From positions 1 to 41,321 of the forward strand of contig JAUIAO010000054.1 of assembly GCA_030425425.1 (NCBI GenBank): a stretch of 41,321 nt of DNA, written 5' to 3'. Positions 12,071-20,369 of the stretch are shown here, in pieces. Under the pieces are notes generated by a model. That model made no database searches, was not told where the DNA came from, and was given only the letters and a program-made list of their open reading frames with translations. How positions within the stretch are numbered: the stretch's first letter is position 1; the number at the start of each line of letters is the position of its first letter. The position numbers were made by a program, and so were the translations under genes. Origin of the DNA: Bacteroidia bacterium. GTDB taxonomy: Bacteria > Bacteroidota > Bacteroidia > Cytophagales > Cyclobacteriaceae.

Positions 12071-12163
12071 ATGCGTCAATTTATTCAACATACAAAAAGC
12101 TATGATAACCCGATAGGGATGGGATTGCTTTGTTTATTGGAATATTGGCCTGGTAATAGTTGA
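12071..12163 (+). CDS. short ORF of 30 codons before a terminator
   Basis: ATG at 12071 follows AAAAAAGAACAA and opens a 30-residue peptide beginning MRQFIQHTKSYDNPIG and ending LLEYWPGNS. No family is recognised. It lies 22 bases before a strong terminator, a position typical of leader peptides or tiny independent genes. The peptide does not show a run of one amino acid that would identify classical amino-acid attenuation. Confidence 0.3.
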   Translation: MRQFIQHTKSYDNPIGMGLLCLLEYWPGNS

Positions 12164-12184
12164 TTTATCAATTAAAAGATATTG

Positions 12185-12213
12185 AAACCCAGGCCTTACG
12201 GTCTGGGTTTTTT
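12185..12213 (+). terminator. strong rho-independent terminator
   Basis: AAACCCAGGCC (12185-12195) pairs with GGTCTGGGTTT (12200-12210) around a TTAC tetraloop, with one G-T pair, and is followed by further T residues. It ends the unit containing the 30-codon ORF. Confidence 0.85.
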
Positions 12214-12236
12214 GTTTTATACGGATTTAGGAAAAA

Positions 12237-12370
12237 TGCCTATGATACAGAATAATATTTTGTTTTTGACGGAAAGTCAGTGGGAGGGGTATGCCCTTAC
12301 AGATCGTCATTTTAATGAGGATTTGAGATTTGACCAAAGAATATTTCAGAAAGGAATTAGTATGACTTAG
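12237..12370 (+). CDS. short ORF of about 44 codons between two terminators
   Basis: From the ATG at about 12237 the frame encodes a peptide starting MPMIQNNILFLTESQWEG and ending FQKGISMT, with mixed polar and hydrophobic content and no recognised domain. A TTG start further upstream would lie inside the preceding terminator hairpin and is not credible. It is followed by a second strong terminator. Coding status is uncertain. Confidence 0.3.
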
Positions 12371-12392
12371 CGTAAGCTGAATCATGCTTATG

Positions 12393-12427
12393 AGCCCCGG
12401 TCTGATTATTCAGGTCGGGGCTTTTTG
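12393..12427 (+). terminator. strong rho-independent terminator directly before the tRNA cluster
   Basis: AGCCCCGGTCTGA (12393-12405) pairs with TCAGGTCGGGGCT (12410-12422) over 13 positions (two G-T pairs) around TTAT, followed by TTTTTG. It ends only six bases before tRNA-Gln, so any promoter further upstream must read through it to express the cluster. Confidence 0.88.
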
Positions 12428-12432
12428 TTTAT

Positions 12433-12503
12433 CGCCGATTGGTCTAAAGGTAAGATGTCAGAATTTGGCTCTGAAGTTACAGGTTCGATTCCTGTATCGG
12501 CTG
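12433..12503 (+). tRNA. tRNA-Gln (anticodon TTG)
   Basis: The folded gene has a D arm GTCT/AGAT (12442-12445 with 12453-12456) and a perfect anticodon stem TCAGA/TCTGA (12458-12462 with 12470-12474). The loop ATTTGGC places TTG at 12465-12467, and the T arm is ACAGG-TTCGATT-CCTGT (12479-12495). The acceptor pairs at six of seven positions (12434-12439 with 12496-12501); the outermost pair is C-T. T8, A14, GG in the D loop and G73 are all present. CCA is not encoded. Its start a few bases after a terminator and its company of odd tRNAs suggest it is an accessory copy. Confidence 0.85.
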
Positions 12504-12676
12504 CTATGCTTAGGGAAGGGTAGAACAGGCGCTTCCCTGTAAATCTGGAGAGTGGTTGAAGGCCTCAAGCGTGGTTCTGTTTCACTGCGTGATGTTTGTA
12601 AAAGCTCTGGATATGAAAGCGAATGGTCATCGGAGGATCGTGGTGATAAAAGGACGATCCGTTCGGTGATCAATAT
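12504..12676 (+). other. unexplained spacer between tRNA-Gln and tRNA-Tyr with tRNA-like scraps and hairpins
   Basis: No complete tRNA can be folded here because no TTCGA-type T loop is present. Fragments resemble the D-arm region of serine tRNAs (GAGAGTGGTTGAAGGC at 12549-12564). Hairpins are GGGAAG/CTTCCC (12513-12518 with 12532-12537) and GGATCGT/ACGATCC (12635-12641 with 12654-12660). A short plus-strand frame also runs through it into tRNA-Tyr but has no credible start. It may be decayed tRNA sequence or a separate structured RNA. Confidence 0.4.
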
Positions 12677-12760
12677 GGGAATACGACGTAGTAAGGAGAG
12701 ACGTGCTTGACTGTAAATCAAGTGTCTATGACTCAGTAGGTTCGAATCCTGCTATTCCCA
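12677..12760 (+). tRNA. tRNA-Tyr (anticodon GTA), class II
   Basis: The acceptor GGGAATA/TATTCCC (12677-12683 with 12753-12759) is perfect with A73 at 12760. The D stem is ACGT/ACGT (12686-12689 with 12701-12704). The anticodon stem CTTGA/TCAAG (12706-12710 with 12718-12722) encloses CTGTAAA with GTA at 12713-12715. The long variable arm (12723-12735) has a GTC/GAC stem as expected for bacterial tRNA-Tyr, and the T arm is GTAGG-TTCGAAT-CCTGC. Position 8 is C instead of the nearly universal T, and CCA is not encoded. It may be an accessory or phage-derived tRNA. Confidence 0.85.
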
Positions 12761-12868
12761 CTGGAAAACGAAAGTAAGAAAGACCAGACGGGTGTTTCTG
12801 TATAGCACTGTAGTATCTGCCTGTAGGTGAGGATATGCTGCTTTTTGCTGGAGGTTTTCCTATCGTCT

Positions 12869-12942
12869 GCTGTAGTTGAGGGTTCGATTCCCTCTCCGCC
12901 AATGGGTGGATAGTTTAATTGGATAGAACAACAGCCCCTTAT
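12869..12942 (+). tRNA. circularly permuted tRNA-like gene 1 (3' half before 5' half)
   Basis: The 3' piece comes first: anticodon-stem strand GCTGT (12869-12873), variable AGTT, T arm GAGGG-TTCGATT-CCCTC (12878-12894) and acceptor strand TCCGCCA (12895-12901). The 5' piece follows at once: acceptor GGGTGGA (12904-12910), T8 and A9, D arm GTTT-loop-GAAC (12913-12929, A14 and GG in the loop), position 26 and anticodon-stem strand ACAGC (12931-12935). ACAGC pairs perfectly with the upstream GCTGT, and the acceptor pairs at six of seven positions. Read linearly instead, neither neighbour supplies a matching acceptor or anticodon stem. The termini fall in the anticodon loop, so the anticodon is uncertain (CTT if taken from the 5' piece, CGT if from the 3' piece). 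The acceptor ends are joined by only a few bases. A decayed tandem array is the alternative. Confidence 0.6.
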
Positions 12943-13026
12943 GTCGCGGGTTCGAGTCCCGTCATTACTGTGCTGAAAGGCCTGGGTAGTGTAGCTCAGA
13001 GGTAGAGCACCATGTTTAGGCCATGG
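12941..13026 (+). tRNA. circularly permuted tRNA-like gene 2 (anticodon TAG in the 5' piece)
   Basis: The 3' piece is variable loop ATGTC (12941-12945), T arm GCGGG-TTCGAGT-CCCGT (12946-12962), acceptor strand CATTACT (12963-12969) and G73. After a 14-base linker the 5' piece reads GGTAGTG (12985-12991), T8 A9, D arm GCTC-AGAGGTA-GAGC (12994-13008), A26, and the full anticodon arm CCATG-TTTAGGC-CATGG (13010-13026) with TAG at 13017-13019. The acceptor pairs at seven of seven positions, two of them G-T. Joining CATGG to ATGTC gives a canonical class I tRNA with all usual invariant bases. TAG would be a leucine anticodon, yet leucine tRNAs are class II, so identity is unclear. No T arm exists downstream of 13026. 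Confidence 0.65.
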
Positions 13027-13594
13027 GATTTGCGGAGATTGGCTTGTTCTTCGCTGTAAACAAAAAAAGCCTCCATTTATGGAAGGTAAAACTGAAGTGT
13101 CCTTTTCCAAACCCCAGTGTTTGGATCAAAATGCCGAAAGAGGCTTTGAGCAATGAGGATACCGTTTGATGACTAATTGGTTCTTCCCGTCAGAAAGAAA
13201 GAGTGTGAAGTTGGAGGAAGTGAAAACTGAAAGGAACAGTCAATCGAGAATCAAACTCAATCATAACTCCGCCATTTCTTTTGGTGGATACTTCAGCTAG
13301 CCTTCTTTTAAAATCCTTTTCTATGTGAATAGAATAGGTTTTGAGTCAATGACTTTTGGGTAAGCTCCACTTATCCCTCTATTAAATAAGAGAGGGTGAA
13401 GGGTGAGATTAAAAAAGGATGCTTAACCAAATGGCATTGCTTAGGAAAAAGAAATTATTGATCAATAGTGATAGCCTTTCTGGTCAATGAATGACTAAGA
13501 AAGGAATCAGCGGCTTTTGAGACTTTCCCTTTAGGGGTAGGGGTAAAAAGGTCGAAATGGCAAACGAAGTTTAACAATTAAATGAGTAAGCGAA
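13027..13594 (+). other. long hairpin-rich leader between the tRNA cluster and the slipin operon
   Basis: No ORF of note is present. An inverted repeat AAAGCCTC (13066-13073) and GAGGCTTT (13140-13147) encloses a smaller hairpin around CCAAAC/GTTTGG. CCCTCT/AGAGGG flanks an AT-rich loop near 13375-13398. CCTTTCT-G-GTCA / TGAC-TA-AGAAAGG forms a nested stem-loop at 13475-13504. A pyrimidine-to-purine element CCCTTTAGGGGTAGGGG lies near 13528-13546 and resembles, by eye, GGGTGAAGGGTGAG at about 13392. The stretch may be a structured 5' leader of the slipin-TPR-rtcB mRNA, or a site of small repeats. Confidence 0.4.
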
Positions 13595-14698
13595 ATGTTG
13601 AAACGAGTAAAAATCAACGAAGGATTCGCGGGACTGGTGTTTCGTGGAGGTGATTACCAGCGAGTGATCACAGCGGGAGTTTACTGGCTGTATTGGTATG
13701 AGACAGTGAGAGTTTTTGATATGTCTCAGGCACTTTATACCACAGTAAGCCTGGATGTGTTGCTCAGGGATGATAGGCTCAAATCACTATTGGAAATCAT
13801 TGAGGTAAAAGATGGTGAATTGTCGCTGGTATATGAAAATGATTCTTTCAAAAATGTACTGACAGCAGGCAGATATGCTTACTGGAAAGGCCTGACAAAC
13901 AGAGTCTTCCAGAAAGTAGATACTTCCTCAGTGGATATGAAAGAAACTGTAGCGCTCTCTGTGCTGGAGAAAGCTGAAGTAGCCAAATATGTAAGGATTC
14001 TGGTGATCGAGGATTTCGAAAAAGGAGCGCTTTTCATTGATGGCAAATACAGCAGAATGCTGTCAGCCGGTACGTACTACTTCTGGAAAAACTCCATTGC
14101 TCTTCGGGTATCCAAAGTGGATATGAGAAGTAAGCATCTGGAAATTTCCGGCCAGGAAATACTGACTGGTGACAAGGCTGCTCTTAGAGTCAACTTTGTG
14201 GTAGAATACAAAGTGACTGATGTGGAGAAAGCTGTTATCGAGAATAAAGATTTTGAAAAGCAGCTTTATGTCGATGTGCAGCTGGCACTGAGAGATTTTA
14301 TTGGTACTTACACGCTTGATGAAGTTTTGGAACAAAAAGAATCCATTGCAGACTATGTGCTCAATGAGGTTCGGGCCAAAGCAACATCACTTGGGGTACA
14401 AGTGAAAGACTGTGGTGTGAGAGACATCATTTTGACTGGTGAAATGAAGGATATCATGAACCAGGTGCTTGTAGCGCAGAAAAAAGCGCAAGCCAATGTG
14501 ATCATGCGCAGGGAAGAAACTGCTTCTACCCGAAGCCTTCTCAACACCGCAAAATTGATGGAGGACAATGAAATGTTGTTCAAACTCAAAGAGATGGAAT
14601 ATGTAGAAAAGATCGCTGAGAAAATTGGTCAGATCACTGTTGCCGGAAACGGAAACGTGATCAGCCAGCTCAAAGAGATCTTCGCTACAACTAAATAG
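13595..14698 (+). CDS. slipin/SPFH (band 7) domain protein with three N-terminal repeats
   Basis: The 367-residue protein has the SPFH domain of stomatin-like proteins at about 137-300 (DMRSKHLEISGQEILTGDKA, then the LGVQVKDCGVRDIILTGEMK strand) and a C-terminal helix (about 305-350). There is no membrane helix. Three related segments precede or enter the SPFH domain: about 3-43, 70-110 and 136-178. Each has the pattern hydrophobic-x-G/D-x-aromatic-x-x-h-L/I-(T/S)-AG-x-Y-x-x-(W/Y), as in YQRVITAGVYW, FKNVLTAGRYAYW and YSRMLSAGTYYFW. It is the first gene of an operon with a TPR-like protein and RtcB. Slipins are known neighbours of rtcB in bacteria, which points to RNA repair or its placement in the cell, but the mechanism is not known. 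Confidence 0.88.
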   Translation: MLKRVKINEGFAGLVFRGGDYQRVITAGVYWLYWYETVRVFDMSQALYTTVSLDVLLRDDRLKSLLEIIEVKDGELSLVYENDSFKNVLTAGRYAYWKGLTNRVFQKVDTSSVDMKETVALSVLEKAEVAKYVRILVIEDFEKGALFIDGKYSRMLSAGTYYFWKNSIALRVSKVDMRSKHLEISGQEILTGDKAALRVNFVVEYKVTDVEKAVIENKDFEKQLYVDVQLALRDFIGTYTLDEVLEQKESIADYVLNEVRAKATSLGVQVKDCGVRDIILTGEMKDIMNQVLVAQKKAQANVIMRREETASTRSLLNTAKLMEDNEMLFKLKEMEYVEKIAEKIGQITVAGNGNVISQLKEIFATTK

Positions 14699-14699
14699 T

Positions 14700-14750
14700 A
14701 TTCCCCACGGATCCTGGTCATTCTGTAAGAATCTCAGGGTCTGGGGGAAT
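14700..14750 (+). promoter_or_regulatory. nested stem-loop between the slipin and TPR genes
   Basis: Three stacked helices share one axis: ATTCCCC/GGGGAAT (14700-14706 with 14744-14750), CCTG/CAGG (14713-14716 with 14735-14738) and ATTCT/AGAAT (14720-14724 with 14728-14732). No T-run follows, so this is more likely an RNA processing, stability or protein-binding element than a terminator. It begins two bases after the slipin stop codon and ends 15 bases before the next start. Confidence 0.5.
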
Positions 14751-14765
14751 CAAACCTTAACTAAA

Positions 14766-15290
14766 ATGAAAATTGTAGATGATTCAATGGAGCAATTGAT
14801 AACAATTGCCGAAGATGCAGTTTACGATGGAGAATACCGGCAAGCAAAGTCTCTATATGAGTCTGGCTTGATGGACGAGCCGGGCTACCCGAAACTTCAT
14901 GCTTCTTTGGCTTGGATGTATCATTATCATCAGGAGAACTTTGAATTGGCTGAGAGGCATTACCTTTTGTCGATTCACTTTGATCCGTCTTATGAATACC
15001 CATTGAATGGGTTGATAGACTTGATGATGACTCAGAAACGCTATGCATTTTTGAAATCCAAATTATTGATTGCGCAGAAAAACCAGGAGCTAGATCAGGA
15101 ACATATTTTAAGGACTCTTGGTAAAATCGCTGAACGTCAGGGAGAATTCATTGAAGCCATTAAATATTACCGCATGGCCATGATGGAATCTACCGACAAT
15201 GACGATTCTGCTGAATTGAAAAAAGATGTAAAACGAATCCGCATGAAGCGGTTCAAAACCATATTAAAACGATGGCAACTACAAAGTTGA
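14766..15290 (+). CDS. TPR-like helical repeat protein of the rtcB operon
   Basis: The 174-residue protein consists of helix-turn-helix repeats typical of tetratricopeptide domains: AVYDGEYRQAKSLYESGLMD, LAWMYHYHQENFELAERHYL and LGKIAERQGEFIEAIKYYRM. These have the usual small residues at positions 8 and 20 and a G/Y at the turn. The basic C-terminus (KKDVKRIRMKRFKTILKRW) could contact RNA or a partner. It lies between the slipin gene and rtcB, and its last 19 bases overlap the start of rtcB, so RtcB and this protein are translationally coupled. An adaptor linking slipin and ligase is an inference. Confidence 0.82.
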   Translation: MKIVDDSMEQLITIAEDAVYDGEYRQAKSLYESGLMDEPGYPKLHASLAWMYHYHQENFELAERHYLLSIHFDPSYEYPLNGLIDLMMTQKRYAFLKSKLLIAQKNQELDQEHILRTLGKIAERQGEFIEAIKYYRMAMMESTDNDDSAELKKDVKRIRMKRFKTILKRWQLQS

Positions 15291-16693
15291 CTGGAAAAGA
15301 ACTGAGAGGGCTCGGATATCCCGAGGGTAAAGTCATCGGGATAGCGCTCAAGGTGATGGAAGCACATTACAAAGGCAAAAGCAAGAAGCTCAAGTTAGAA
15401 CTGCTTCAGAGAGTGATTGAAAATCCTGCATTTCATGTGAAAAATGAACTGCTGGCGCCAATTGCCAAAAGCTTGATTATTAAGACTGAGCACAATGATG
15501 TCCATGATTTGAACACTCATCGGCTGGATTACAATATTTACGGTGCTGATGGAATCGAACCAGGGGCAATTAACCAAATGGAGATTGCTATGAAGCTCCC
15601 TATTACCAGAAAAGGTGCCTTGATGCCCGATGCACATCAGGGGTATGGCTTACCAATTGGTGGTGTGCTGGCAGTGGAAAACGCTGTAATACCGTATGGC
15701 GTAGGAGTGGATATAGGTTGTAGAATGTGTATGACGCTTTATGACTTGCCTGCTGTGTTTGATTACCACAAAGTCCATGATTTTAGAAAGATGCTGGAGG
15801 ATAATACCAGATTTGGAAATGCATCCTTTAGGCGGCCAAAAGATCATGAAGTGCTTGAAAGAAAGGAGTTTGGTGAAATCAATGTTTTAAAGGCACTCAA
15901 GGACAGAGCCTATGCGCAGATTGGTACATCCGGTGGAGGTAATCACTTTGTGGAGTTTGGAGTCGGGGAGATTCTGGATAAGAACAACGAGTTTCGACTA
16001 CCAGTTGGTAAATATCTCTCAGTGTTGTCTCATTCTGGGTCGAGAGGTCTGGGTGCCAATATCGCGAGGCATTACACCAGATTGGCGATGGATATGTGTA
16101 AACTCCCTTCTCAGGCCAAGAATCTGGCTTGGCTCGATCTGGATACAGAGGAAGGCCAGGAGTATTGGTTGGCGATGAATCTTGCCGGTGATTATGCCTC
16201 TGCTTGTCATCATCAGATCCATGAGAGAATAGCCGCTACTTTAGGTGAAAAGCCGCTGGCAATGGTTGAAAACCATCACAATTTCGCCTGGAAGGAGCAA
16301 GATGAAAACGGTAAGGAATTGATCGTACATAGAAAAGGAGCTACTCCAGCAGGAGAGGGAGTTTTGGGGATCATTCCCGGTTCAATGGCGTCTCCGGGTT
16401 TCATAGTGAGAGGTAAAGGTGATCACAACGCTGTGAATTCTGCTTCGCATGGAGCTGGTAGAGTCATGAGCAGGACTAGAGCCAAACAGTCTCTTTCCAG
16501 AGATGAAGTAAGAAAACATCTGAAAAAGGCTGGTGTTTCTGTGATTGGGTCTGATTTGGATGAAGCACCACAAGTGTATAAAGACATCCATCGGGTGATG
16601 CAAAACCAAACCGATCTGGTGGATGTCGTGGGTACATTCACCCCGAAAGTGGTAAGAATGTGTGGTGAGAGAAGGTTTGCTGAGATGGATTAA
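15272..16693 (+). CDS. rtcB: RNA ligase RtcB (3'-phosphate/2',3'-cyclic phosphate to 5'-OH)
   Basis: RtcB joins RNA ends bearing a 3'-phosphate or 2',3'-cyclic phosphate to 5'-OH ends, using GTP and Mn2+. It repairs cleaved tRNAs and other broken RNAs in the cytoplasm. The 473-residue sequence has every family motif: MPDAHQGYGLPIGG (118-131), GVDIGCRM with the metal ligand C150, GTSGGGNHFVE (218-228), SHSGSRGLG (253-261), ENHHNFAW (333-340), HRKGATPA and SASHGAGR with the guanylated H393. The length is normal. The start overlaps the TPR gene. There is no rtcA, archease or rtcR gene in the window, so any regulation differs from that of the enterobacterial operon. A terminator follows. Confidence 0.97.
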   Translation: MATTKLTGKELRGLGYPEGKVIGIALKVMEAHYKGKSKKLKLELLQRVIENPAFHVKNELLAPIAKSLIIKTEHNDVHDLNTHRLDYNIYGADGIEPGAINQMEIAMKLPITRKGALMPDAHQGYGLPIGGVLAVENAVIPYGVGVDIGCRMCMTLYDLPAVFDYHKVHDFRKMLEDNTRFGNASFRRPKDHEVLERKEFGEINVLKALKDRAYAQIGTSGGGNHFVEFGVGEILDKNNEFRLPVGKYLSVLSHSGSRGLGANIARHYTRLAMDMCKLPSQAKNLAWLDLDTEEGQEYWLAMNLAGDYASACHHQIHERIAATLGEKPLAMVENHHNFAWKEQDENGKELIVHRKGATPAGEGVLGIIPGSMASPGFIVRGKGDHNAVNSASHGAGRVMSRTRAKQSLSRDEVRKHLKKAGVSVIGSDLDEAPQVYKDIHRVMQNQTDLVDVVGTFTPKVVRMCGERRFAEMD

Positions 16694-19425: not shown

Positions 19426-19899
19426 TTATATGTTTTGAGGCTTTAATCTTTCGTCAAAATTAGCGGGAGCTATATCCTTGATATTGATAGCACCTTCATA
19501 CCCATGAAATCTTGGGTTTAGGAGGTAATTGAATTCGCCTGGCACTACTACCGACGGAACTTTTAGACCAAGAGTCATATCCGTAAATAACCGGGTGGTT
19601 GTTTGCTGAACTTGCACATCGTATTTCATCGATTGCCAATTGATTGGCAGTTCCTCACCAATTAATTCATGAATTAATGTATTGTCTTTAATTTCTATTG
19701 TAGCAATCATCAAGTCTGTAGGCCATAGTTCTCGATCATACTGATGAACTAAAAATTCGAGATAGGCCAGAGATCTGTGTGAAGCGAGATATAGACAATA
19801 TGTTCCGGGTAAATTCCATCTCCCTCCATATAAATAGGCTCCATATCCAGAAAGATCATCTATATATTGACTTTGGGCAATTCGGTAAGTTGTGATCAT
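19426..19899 (-). CDS. RES-domain toxin of a Xre-RES toxin-antitoxin system
   Basis: RES toxins degrade NAD+ in the cytoplasm and arrest growth. The 157-residue protein has the three name-giving residues: an Arg early on (YRIA, and again in GGRWN at 25-29), Glu48 in LAYLEFLVH, and Ser116 in KVPSVVVPGEFNYLLNP. The length is typical. Its ATG overlaps the antitoxin gene by four bases (ATGA), so the pair is translationally coupled with antitoxin first, the normal order for this system. It is convergent with the M14 gene. Confidence 0.94.
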   Translation of the reverse strand: MITTYRIAQSQYIDDLSGYGAYLYGGRWNLPGTYCLYLASHRSLAYLEFLVHQYDRELWPTDLMIATIEIKDNTLIHELIGEELPINWQSMKYDVQVQQTTTRLFTDMTLGLKVPSVVVPGEFNYLLNPRFHGYEGAINIKDIAPANFDERLKPQNI

Positions 19900-20369
19900 G
19901 CCATAATGCCATGCTGGGCTCTTCTGATCTCATCTATTACCACCTGACAGCCTGTGGTTGTATTTAAAAATGATCGAGGTTCATCACCCAGCATTGGATG
20001 ATATTTTTGTAGCCATTTTTTGAATTTTTCAATATCTCCAAAAAGTTGCTCTCCTGCTCTAAAAACACGAATGATATTCAGGATGCGCTCTCCGGTAGCT
20101 TCGTCAAGAATTTGCTTTCTGGAAAATGTTTTGATGGAGCTGGGAAGCAATTCTTCAAACTCAGTCTTTGAGCTCTTGATTGATTTGAGAAATTCCCAGA
20201 ACATCTTGGTCTTAACGCCTTTTCTGGCTTCTGTGATGATTGATAGGTCAGTATCCAACTGCATAGGAGTTACTCCATATGCGGCAAGGGGCTCTTCTAC
20301 GAGGCTGTGATCACCATATTTTTCTTCATATCCCACATCCAAATATAGACATTTTTCCTTGGTATTCAA
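19896..20369 (-). CDS. Xre/MbcA/ParS-type antitoxin (DUF2384) of the RES system
   Basis: The 157-residue antitoxin binds the RES toxin and should repress the operon. The C-terminal half shows the antitoxin Xre/MbcA/ParS toxin-binding domain: RILNIIRVFRAGEQLFGDIE, then KFKKWLQKYHPMLGDEPRSF, with the conserved W...P...G..P element, and a final helix VVIDEIRRAQHG. The N-terminal part contains the atypical HTH. The gene starts just downstream of the S41 protease gene and may share its transcript or use a promoter in the 13-base gap plus the end of that gene. Confidence 0.92.
   Translation of the reverse strand: MNTKEKCLYLDVGYEEKYGDHSLVEEPLAAYGVTPMQLDTDLSIITEARKGVKTKMFWEFLKSIKSSKTEFEELLPSSIKTFSRKQILDEATGERILNIIRVFRAGEQLFGDIEKFKKWLQKYHPMLGDEPRSFLNTTTGCQVVIDEIRRAQHGIMA

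Follow-up and report, generated by a model that had tools for sequence, protein, structure and literature searches.

The window (the whole stretch of DNA analysed, 41,321 nt) carries on its plus strand a locus in which ordinary tRNA genes, tRNA-like elements and genes for RNA repair follow one another. Genes for tRNA-Gln (TTG; 12433–12504) and tRNA-Tyr (GTA; 12677–12761), both found by ARAGORN and Rfam, are followed by two permuted tRNA modules and then by a slipin–TPR–rtcB operon. The slipin (SPFH/Band_7) gene (13595–14698) has a Band_7 match and encodes N-terminal beta repeats according to the predicted structure, and the operon is completed by genes for a TPR protein (14766–15290) and the RNA ligase RtcB (15272–16693). 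The cluster ends ∼570 nt before slipin. An earlier note on this DNA had reported two ordinary and two permuted tRNAs at this distance from the operon, and ARAGORN, Rfam and a covariance model confirm the arrangement. The tRNA-Tyr is diverged from the other tRNA-Tyr examined in the genome, with 59 of 91 aligned positions identical. Two further stretches, Segment A between the tRNA genes (12505–12676; not recognised as tRNA) and Segment C (13061–13340), are kept in some relatives as judged by nhmmer. Across the whole 5.8 Mb genome rtcB is single-copy, and RtcR, RtcA (RTC) and archease have no match at E≤0.001, in agreement with the earlier note. Ahead of the first tRNA (12071–12430), and outside the region discussed in that note, lie two units of a leader open reading frame (ORF) and an intrinsic terminator. 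No other strong plus-strand terminator is listed between the tRNAs and rtcB. No plus-strand promoter was identified, promoter-like sites occurring at chance level.

ARAGORN and Rfam at default settings miss the permuted units. Both units are parts of a more extended structured RNA, which begins near 12768. Its 5′ domain is a predicted three-way junction (12768–12866), followed by module 1 (12865–12939), consisting of T arm, acceptor hairpin, D arm and an anticodon-type closing stem, and by module 2 (12932–13018). An anticodon-arm-like hairpin of 5 bp with a 7-nt loop (13010–13026) after the second D arm was read from the sequence and also located by script. The module covariance model scores 63.9 bits for module 1, itself a member of the training alignment, and 47.1 bits for module 2 in the 5.8 Mb genome; the next-best places, at 43.9 and 33.3 bits, are adjacent ordinary tRNAs. 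The alignment of module 1 was derived from 96 distinct block-B sequences, of which 6 had no module pick, 15 had picks excluded as second modules or wrong places and 2 had repeated cores. In the remaining 73 sequences, 20 of 21 pairs show changes in both partners. For the 5′ domain, 20 of 90 picks were excluded; across the other 70 sequences, both partners vary in 16 of the 20 predicted pairs. A canonical reading, in which a 5′ acceptor strand before the first D arm pairs with a 3′ strand after the second T arm, was set aside because the hairpin between the first T arm and the first D arm covaries. Anticodon-type hairpins were counted in 81 of the 96 sequences and in 217 of 1407 control sequences. 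This count is inflated, since in 22 cases, probably T arms, the loop reads CGA. As judged from covariation and position, the permuted modules belong to one conserved structured RNA of Bacteroidota slipin–rtcB loci.

Of 79 evaluable loci, mostly ones used for training, 77 have this RNA ahead of the same slipin family; so do 31 of 33 family genomes among the matches listed and, in a second sample, 12 of 13 genomes. The number of modules, as counted by eye, differs among loci and is usually two. Rfam at gathering level, applied to 11 of the 80 related loci, gave tRNA matches, one tRNA-Sec match and no YrlA. Same-strand tRNA arrays of up to 18 genes usually accompany the RNA. In the 80 loci, tRNA density upstream on the slipin strand is 1.03 per kb (425 tRNAs), compared to 0.009 per kb elsewhere in the same loci (14 tRNAs). 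The coupling of tRNA cluster and permuted tRNAs with slipin–RtcB that the earlier note proposed is real and conserved. Relatives with the operon and no tRNA cluster, which the note had named as counter-evidence, do exist with respect to ordinary tRNAs (absent upstream in 14 of 73 loci with >3 kb of upstream sequence, by ARAGORN), but nearly all evaluable loci keep the permuted RNA. No description of a tRNA array with slipin–rtcB in Bacteroidota was found in open-licence PMC papers.

With RtcR, RtcA and archease absent, the earlier note had called for another sensor, and leader-peptide attenuators would be a candidate for it. Leader ORF 1 (12071–12163) has 30 codons covering 18 amino-acid types and directly precedes terminator 1 (12184–12214; 12 pairs). 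Leader ORF 2 (12236–12370), with 44 codons and likewise 18 amino-acid types, lies ahead of terminator 2 (12392–12430; 14 pairs), which ends just 5′ of tRNA-Gln. Leader 1 recurs in relatives. The predicted antiterminator strand falls within the last codons of leader 1 (12146–12154) and pairs with the 5′ arm of the terminator (z −2.45; 2.3% of shuffles as good). For leader 2 the pairing is not significant (z −0.23), leaving leader 1 as the only one in the window for which it is.

Most loci with the permuted RNA and a tRNA array carry such units. Of the 140 terminators that lie upstream of slipin on its strand, 112 have a leader ORF; of 169 at other places in these sequences, 17 do. As a class, the leaders also hold an antiterminator strand in their last codons: pairing has a mean z of −2.25 at 130 upstream terminators versus 0.02 at 159 others, although many loci are related and summed z values overstate independence. 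Amino-acid coverage of the leaders exceeds both nucleotide-shuffle nulls. These replaced a proteome null, since the leaders are enriched in Cys, Arg, His and Trp in the way that non-coding DNA is. Peptides of over 60% similarity were collapsed for the coverage test and for one pairing test, in which at least 15 amino-acid types were also required. The composition of the peptides resembles non-coding DNA, and no purifying selection on them was detected in 58 pairs (synonymous share 0.218, versus 0.212 for random changes). A strict unit rule, used for the coverage comparisons, for that pairing test and for the terminator counts, rejected leaders with a frame open for >62 codons, among them leader 2 of the window, whose frame is open upstream; of the two units that pass the rule in the window, one is far upstream. 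By this rule, units are missing in 6 of 55 loci of the first set that have tRNAs and 5 kb or more of upstream sequence, and present in 8 of 13 loci without detected tRNAs. The split is sharper in the second sample, with units in 8 of 8 loci with tRNAs and 0 of 5 without. No description of such leaders was found in open-licence PMC papers.

We consider it rather probable that this operon, under attenuator control, responds to tRNAs that are broken or missing. What sequence comparison across relatives documents is the fold of the RNA and its position ahead of slipin, together with the tRNA arrays and the leader ORF–terminator–antiterminator layout; translation of the leaders, the inducing signal, read-through to rtcB and the function of the RNA are what we infer. 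In the proposed mechanism, two tandem attenuators head the operon, each a short leader ORF with nearly all amino acids and an intrinsic terminator. A ribosome reading the leader freely would cover the antiterminator strand, the terminator would form and transcription would stop. If almost any tRNA were missing, for instance after cleavage by an anticodon nuclease, the ribosome would stall early and the antiterminator would form. RNA polymerase would then read through into replacement tRNAs, the permuted-tRNA RNA, slipin, the TPR protein and RtcB, and RtcB would reseal the cut tRNAs. The permuted RNA may act as a tRNA mimic, may serve as a decoy for a nuclease or may be an RNA on which slipin and RtcB dock.

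The same layout could serve a broader purpose. The attenuators may sense any slowing of elongation, as caused by ribosome-targeting drugs or starvation, and the operon would then be a general translation-stress regulon. Leader peptides that are not conserved would fit any slow-down. Moreover, a single regulator in Anabaena represses a tRNA array together with rtcB and a slipin gene, and translation inhibitors lift this repression (PMC10272220); PA5471.1 responds to ribosome inhibitors as well as to loss of the CCA enzyme (PMC13041342). However, sensing of a global slow-down has no need of amino-acid coverage above shuffled sequence, and what the switch controls is a set of tRNA genes and a gene for an RNA ligase. 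We regard this explanation as possible but rather unlikely.

A role of the permuted tRNAs as RtcB substrates, cut or joined into working tRNAs or circular RNAs, appears improbable. RtcB joins tRNA halves in other organisms, and here the RNA shares an operon with rtcB. As the earlier note had proposed, module 1 corresponds to a tRNA that is open at its anticodon stem, but it has no anticodon loop, the remainder of the RNA standing in its place, and therefore joining of its ends would yield no ordinary tRNA. Its acceptor strands are already linked by a short covarying hairpin, and the variable module number likewise speaks against a substrate role. Maturation by RtcB, which the note had also suggested, is thus unlikely, and of its suggestions a decoy or signal is favoured. 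It is more doubtful still, to the point of being hardly credible, that the odd units are functionless remnants of decayed tRNA genes or of a phage-derived array. Some array members do fall below tRNA detection, and tRNA gene clusters are also known from phages, which one paper reportedly describes. Against this stand the compensatory changes in nearly every pair of module 1, the fixed position ahead of slipin, and the absence of full-length relatives of slipin from 50,697 phage records.

The response-operon reading can be extended, more tentatively, to slipin itself. Its predicted structure gives whole-model matches to major vault protein (MVP), a resemblance in predicted fold only. The same slipin family adjoins rtcR in Citrobacter, which speaks for the response-operon reading; for other phyla, 4 of 44 plasmid-collection records with a match were looked at. 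It is conceivable, though we would not count on it, that the tandem pan-amino-acid attenuators form a universal tRNA-integrity sensor controlling replacement tRNAs and a Ro60-independent Y RNA relative built of permuted tRNA bodies, with a small MVP-like slipin as partner. The locus may then be a bacterial counterpart of vault-type ribonucleoproteins coupled to RtcB, and diverged forms may precede the same slipin in Pseudomonadota and Bacillota. If the proposal is correct, bacteria without RtcR would sense broken tRNAs through ribosomes reading a short test message of nearly all amino acids, with one general sensor, rather than one per amino acid, wired to tRNA replacement and repair. It would take the tRNA-like module of Y RNAs beyond the Ro60 context, with slipin as the conserved protein neighbour, and would make the roles of slipin and the YrlA module in RNA repair directly testable. 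Similar loci are widespread in Bacteroidota and would amount to a general alarm for broken tRNAs.

Among known RNAs, the modules most resemble YrlA (RF02553), with the same order of T arm, acceptor hairpin, D arm and closing stem and a similar proximity to rtcB. Salmonella has rsr-yrlBA-rtcBA, with a YrlA-type bacterial Y RNA and Ro60/Rsr (PMC7790460). When the module model, derived from slipin loci, was applied to 8 retrieved loci, it located modules next to Ro60 (TROVE) genes in 6 of them. The YrlA matches in the window score 37.1 bits (12873–12930) and 32.3 bits (12942–13008), below the gathering score of 69. Little weight can be placed on this threshold within the phylum, since RNAs beside a TROVE gene at one locus (L121) also fall under it (38.0 and 34.3 bits). 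In contrast to YrlA, the RNA in the window has its own 5′ domain and, as at most loci, two modules, and the Rfam model matches the module only (positions 26–82 of 114). The matches in the window do not reach as far as the Ro60-binding stem. No Ro60 (TROVE) gene was matched in this genome, and 26 of the 33 slipin genomes have none. Permuted tRNA genes of algae and archaea likewise place the 3′ part of a tRNA before the 5′ part, but these mature to tRNAs, whereas module 1 has an acceptor hairpin and no anticodon loop. Of the rtcBA RNA-repair operon, RtcB is present here, and RtcA and its regulator RtcR are absent. In the biosynthetic attenuators of trp and his, the antiterminator strand also lies in the last codons of the leader ORF, but one amino acid is repeated, whereas the leaders in the window spread over nearly all. 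In Pseudomonas aeruginosa PA5471.1-armZ, a leader peptide, terminator and antiterminator report translation failure, including tRNA defects (PMC13041342). In that short leader two codons are implicated (Gln, Phe), and the gene that follows is for an efflux regulator, whereas the window has near-complete amino-acid sets, in units that are often tandem, ahead of tRNA and RNA-repair genes. As is proposed for our locus, the Anabaena trn operon and TrcR regulon put rtcB, a slipin gene and an array of additional tRNAs under common control, with translational stress as inducer, but there the genes are scattered and governed by a protein repressor, and the excerpts of that report do not mention a permuted RNA (PMC10272220).

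The window carries, in order, tRNA-Gln, tRNA-Tyr, two permuted tRNA units (12865-12939 and 12932-13018) and the genes for slipin, a TPR protein and RtcB. An earlier note on this DNA had tied the tRNA cluster and the permuted tRNAs to slipin-RtcB, and the association is real: the position of the array next to slipin-RtcB is conserved. We compared the best 80 of 222 slipin loci from genome contigs. Of these, 73 had more than 3 kb upstream, where at least one tRNA lay on the slipin strand in 59, at least two in 44 and at least five in 30, the largest array holding 18. Across the 80 loci tRNA density was 1.03 per kb upstream of slipin on its strand, compared to 0.009 per kb elsewhere, and RtcB was found within the available stretch in 43 (25 before slipin, 18 after). 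The arrays of these loci are nearly devoid of some isotypes (Ala 1, Gly 1, Thr 2, Met 2 and Val 3, together 9 of 405 tRNAs). One of the 80 records (L033) is titled Rickettsiales bacterium; its slipin is 74% identical to that of the window, as in a same-genus genome, and it is possibly a mislabelled bin.

The tRNA-Tyr of the window array is strongly diverged, with 59 of 91 positions identical to the other tRNA-Tyr examined. Between tRNA-Gln and tRNA-Tyr lies a conserved non-tRNA segment (12505-12676) that recurs in part of the relatives and may be another structured RNA. The gap between the permuted RNA and slipin holds a further conserved segment (13061-13340). A stretch in it resembling GGATACCG turns up again in relatives and, on visual inspection, in a locus of another phylum (L131). 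Approximately 2.7 kb past rtcB, a RES-domain toxin and an Xre/MbcA-type antitoxin are encoded on the minus strand (19426-20369).

By comparative sequence analysis, the permuted tRNAs are part of a conserved structured RNA with a Y-RNA-type module. Standard tRNA tools missed the permuted units in the window. An alignment of 73 first modules gave the order anticodon-stem strand, variable loop, T arm, acceptor hairpin, D arm and other anticodon-stem strand, with the acceptor strands closed into a hairpin. In this alignment 20 of 21 module pairs changed on both sides, 94.4% of cells paired (71.4% when shuffled), and the covariation score was 0.671, compared to 0.232 for shuffled and at most 0.189 for slid versions. 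A second domain occupies the 99 nt 5' of module 1, and 16 of its 20 predicted pairs changed on both sides among 70 sequences. In most loci, homologs of the segment 12762-13060 sit immediately upstream of slipin, also where tRNAs are not detectable, as in L058 and L104.

A covariance model of the module, R1, scored 63.9 bits in the window. At 45 bits or more and within 0.9 kb before slipin, it was found in 77 of 79 evaluable loci among the best 80 of 222, most of which were R1 training loci; L061 had too little upstream sequence to be evaluated. Only L041 and L042 lacked the permuted RNA by this measure; in both, a tRNA-Tyr ends ∼30 nt before slipin. A further search covered 196 genomes from the family to which this genome belongs; among the matches listed, the R1 place adjoins slipin in 31 of the 33 genomes with slipin (E<1e-100); of the two exceptions, the place in G159 was not among the matches listed, and slipin in G022 starts at a contig end. 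A second sample of 296 genomes across the phylum contained 14 with slipin, one being the present genome. The other 13 loci had no nucleotide match above 85.5% identity to the first set, judged by the longest match, and 11 of them had an R1 match 0.3-0.6 kb upstream of slipin with E≤1e-9. The twelfth scored 35.4 bits at 0.27 kb before slipin, and the thirteenth matched in the T arm only.

Full-length slipin relatives with 35-43% identity were found outside Bacteroidota. In Citrobacter freundii the gene has rtcR on one side and a nucleotidyltransferase gene on the other. Slipin also adjoins a nucleotidyltransferase of that kind in an E. coli plasmid record, and rtcB follows slipin in Subdoligranulum and Burkholderia records. 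All four records examined have a weak R1 match on the slipin strand 0.14-0.29 kb before it (31.6, 26.2, 17.4 and 15.1 bits), and no other match reached E≤0.1 in the 52,338 bases searched. By eye, three of the four have a T arm and then a hairpin of acceptor type; the Burkholderia stretch looks like a tRNA with an extra T arm. An R1-like RNA before slipin in other phyla is a lead.

A permissive Rfam scan gave matches to YrlA, a bacterial Y RNA, on the permuted units, confined to the tRNA-like module. Eight places with good R1 scores away from slipin (L121-L128) were fetched, and a TROVE protein was close by in six, by Pfam in L121, L122 and L125 and by coordinates in L123, L124 and L128. Since the slipin-trained model recovered these modules beside Ro60 genes, they are probably Y RNAs; those of L121 (38.0 and 34.3 bits) also fall below the Rfam YrlA threshold. 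The modules of L126 and L127 (62.4 and 60.3 bits) had neither TROVE nor slipin nearby; beside those of L126, a CobW protein and a 722-residue protein with no Pfam match are encoded. In L125, from a genome that also carries slipin, RtcB and TROVE are joined by Y-RNA-type modules and two RlaP-family proteins, making it a second RNA-repair locus of that genome. Ro60/TROVE had zero matches in the present genome and occurs in only 15 of the 196 family genomes and 7 of the 33 with slipin; dependence on Ro60 can therefore not be a general property of the slipin RNA.

Whole-genome searches likewise gave zero matches to RtcA, RtcR and archease, confirming the absences listed in the earlier note, which had called for a sensor other than RtcR. 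Leader-peptide attenuators are a probable candidate. Before the first window tRNA are two short ORFs (12071-12163 and 12236-12370), each followed by an intrinsic terminator. We defined a unit as an ORF 18-60 codons long whose end lies 15-50 nt ahead of a terminator hairpin. In the best 80 of 222 loci and the window, 140 terminators were located on the slipin strand in the 6 kb upstream of slipin, and 112 of them had such an ORF; of 169 terminators elsewhere in the same sequences, 17 had one. With the window counted, 69 sequences extended 5 kb or more upstream; one or more units were present in 58 of these and two or more in 45, while 11 lacked units. In the second sample, the 8 loci with tRNAs detected by ARAGORN all had units and the other 5 had none; the link was looser in the first set (49 of 55 loci with tRNAs, 8 of 13 without; best 80 of 222). 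Where rtcB precedes slipin, an extra unit lies ∼140-160 nt before rtcB in L054, L055, L059, L067 and L070.

The terminator 5' arm is complementary to the ORF end (mean z -2.19 over 52 clusters, 41 below -1). In 33 of the 52 the strand that pairs begins 14-23 nt upstream of the stop. With a fixed 100-nt window that ignored the ORF, mean z was -2.25 for upstream terminators (n=130) versus 0.02 for others (n=159; p 5e-24), and different arms were matched by different complements. In the window, antiterminator pairing was significant for leader 1 (z -2.45) and not for leader 2 (z -0.23). The predicted combination of ORF, terminator and complementary ORF end is the layout of a ribosome-mediated attenuator. 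Leader peptides averaged 16.6 amino-acid types in 64 clusters, a set including some ORFs that are probably not leaders, versus 15.0 after nucleotide and 15.4 after position-wise shuffling; the Stouffer values for coverage (9.1 and 7.7, respectively) overstate the evidence, as do z sums generally, because the loci are related. Several leader peptides, e.g. in L066, L091 and L100, use all twenty amino acids. No purifying selection on the peptides was seen in 58 pairs (257, 254 and 287 differences at codon positions 1, 2 and 3), and their composition resembles non-coding DNA. Translation of the leaders is therefore argued from where the ORFs lie, from coverage exceeding that of the shuffles and from the antiterminator's position. 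No promoter stands out in the window. A set of leader-peptide attenuators, and not RtcR, is thus the probable regulator.

In the likeliest scheme, ribosomes would stall on a leader when a tRNA is depleted. The stalled leader would let the terminators be bypassed, and read-through would yield replacement tRNAs, the mimic RNA, slipin, the TPR protein and RtcB, which would reseal cut tRNAs. The diverged array tRNA-Tyr would fit a replacement set able to escape a nuclease. The mimic RNA is most likely a nuclease decoy or docking RNA; anticodon nuclease inhibition has been suggested for the YrlA module (PMC7790460).

Two known systems resemble parts of this scheme. In Anabaena, a tRNA array answers to the same repressor as rtcB and a slipin gene, and translation inhibitors relieve that repression (PMC10272220); the likeness is the common control of these genes. 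In Pseudomonas aeruginosa, PA5471.1 is described in PMC13041342 as a leader peptide reporting translation failure, tRNA defects included, and the likeness there is the leader peptide as reporter. We file the present locus as a variant of RNA-repair operons, placed in neither the YrlA nor the rtcBA family.
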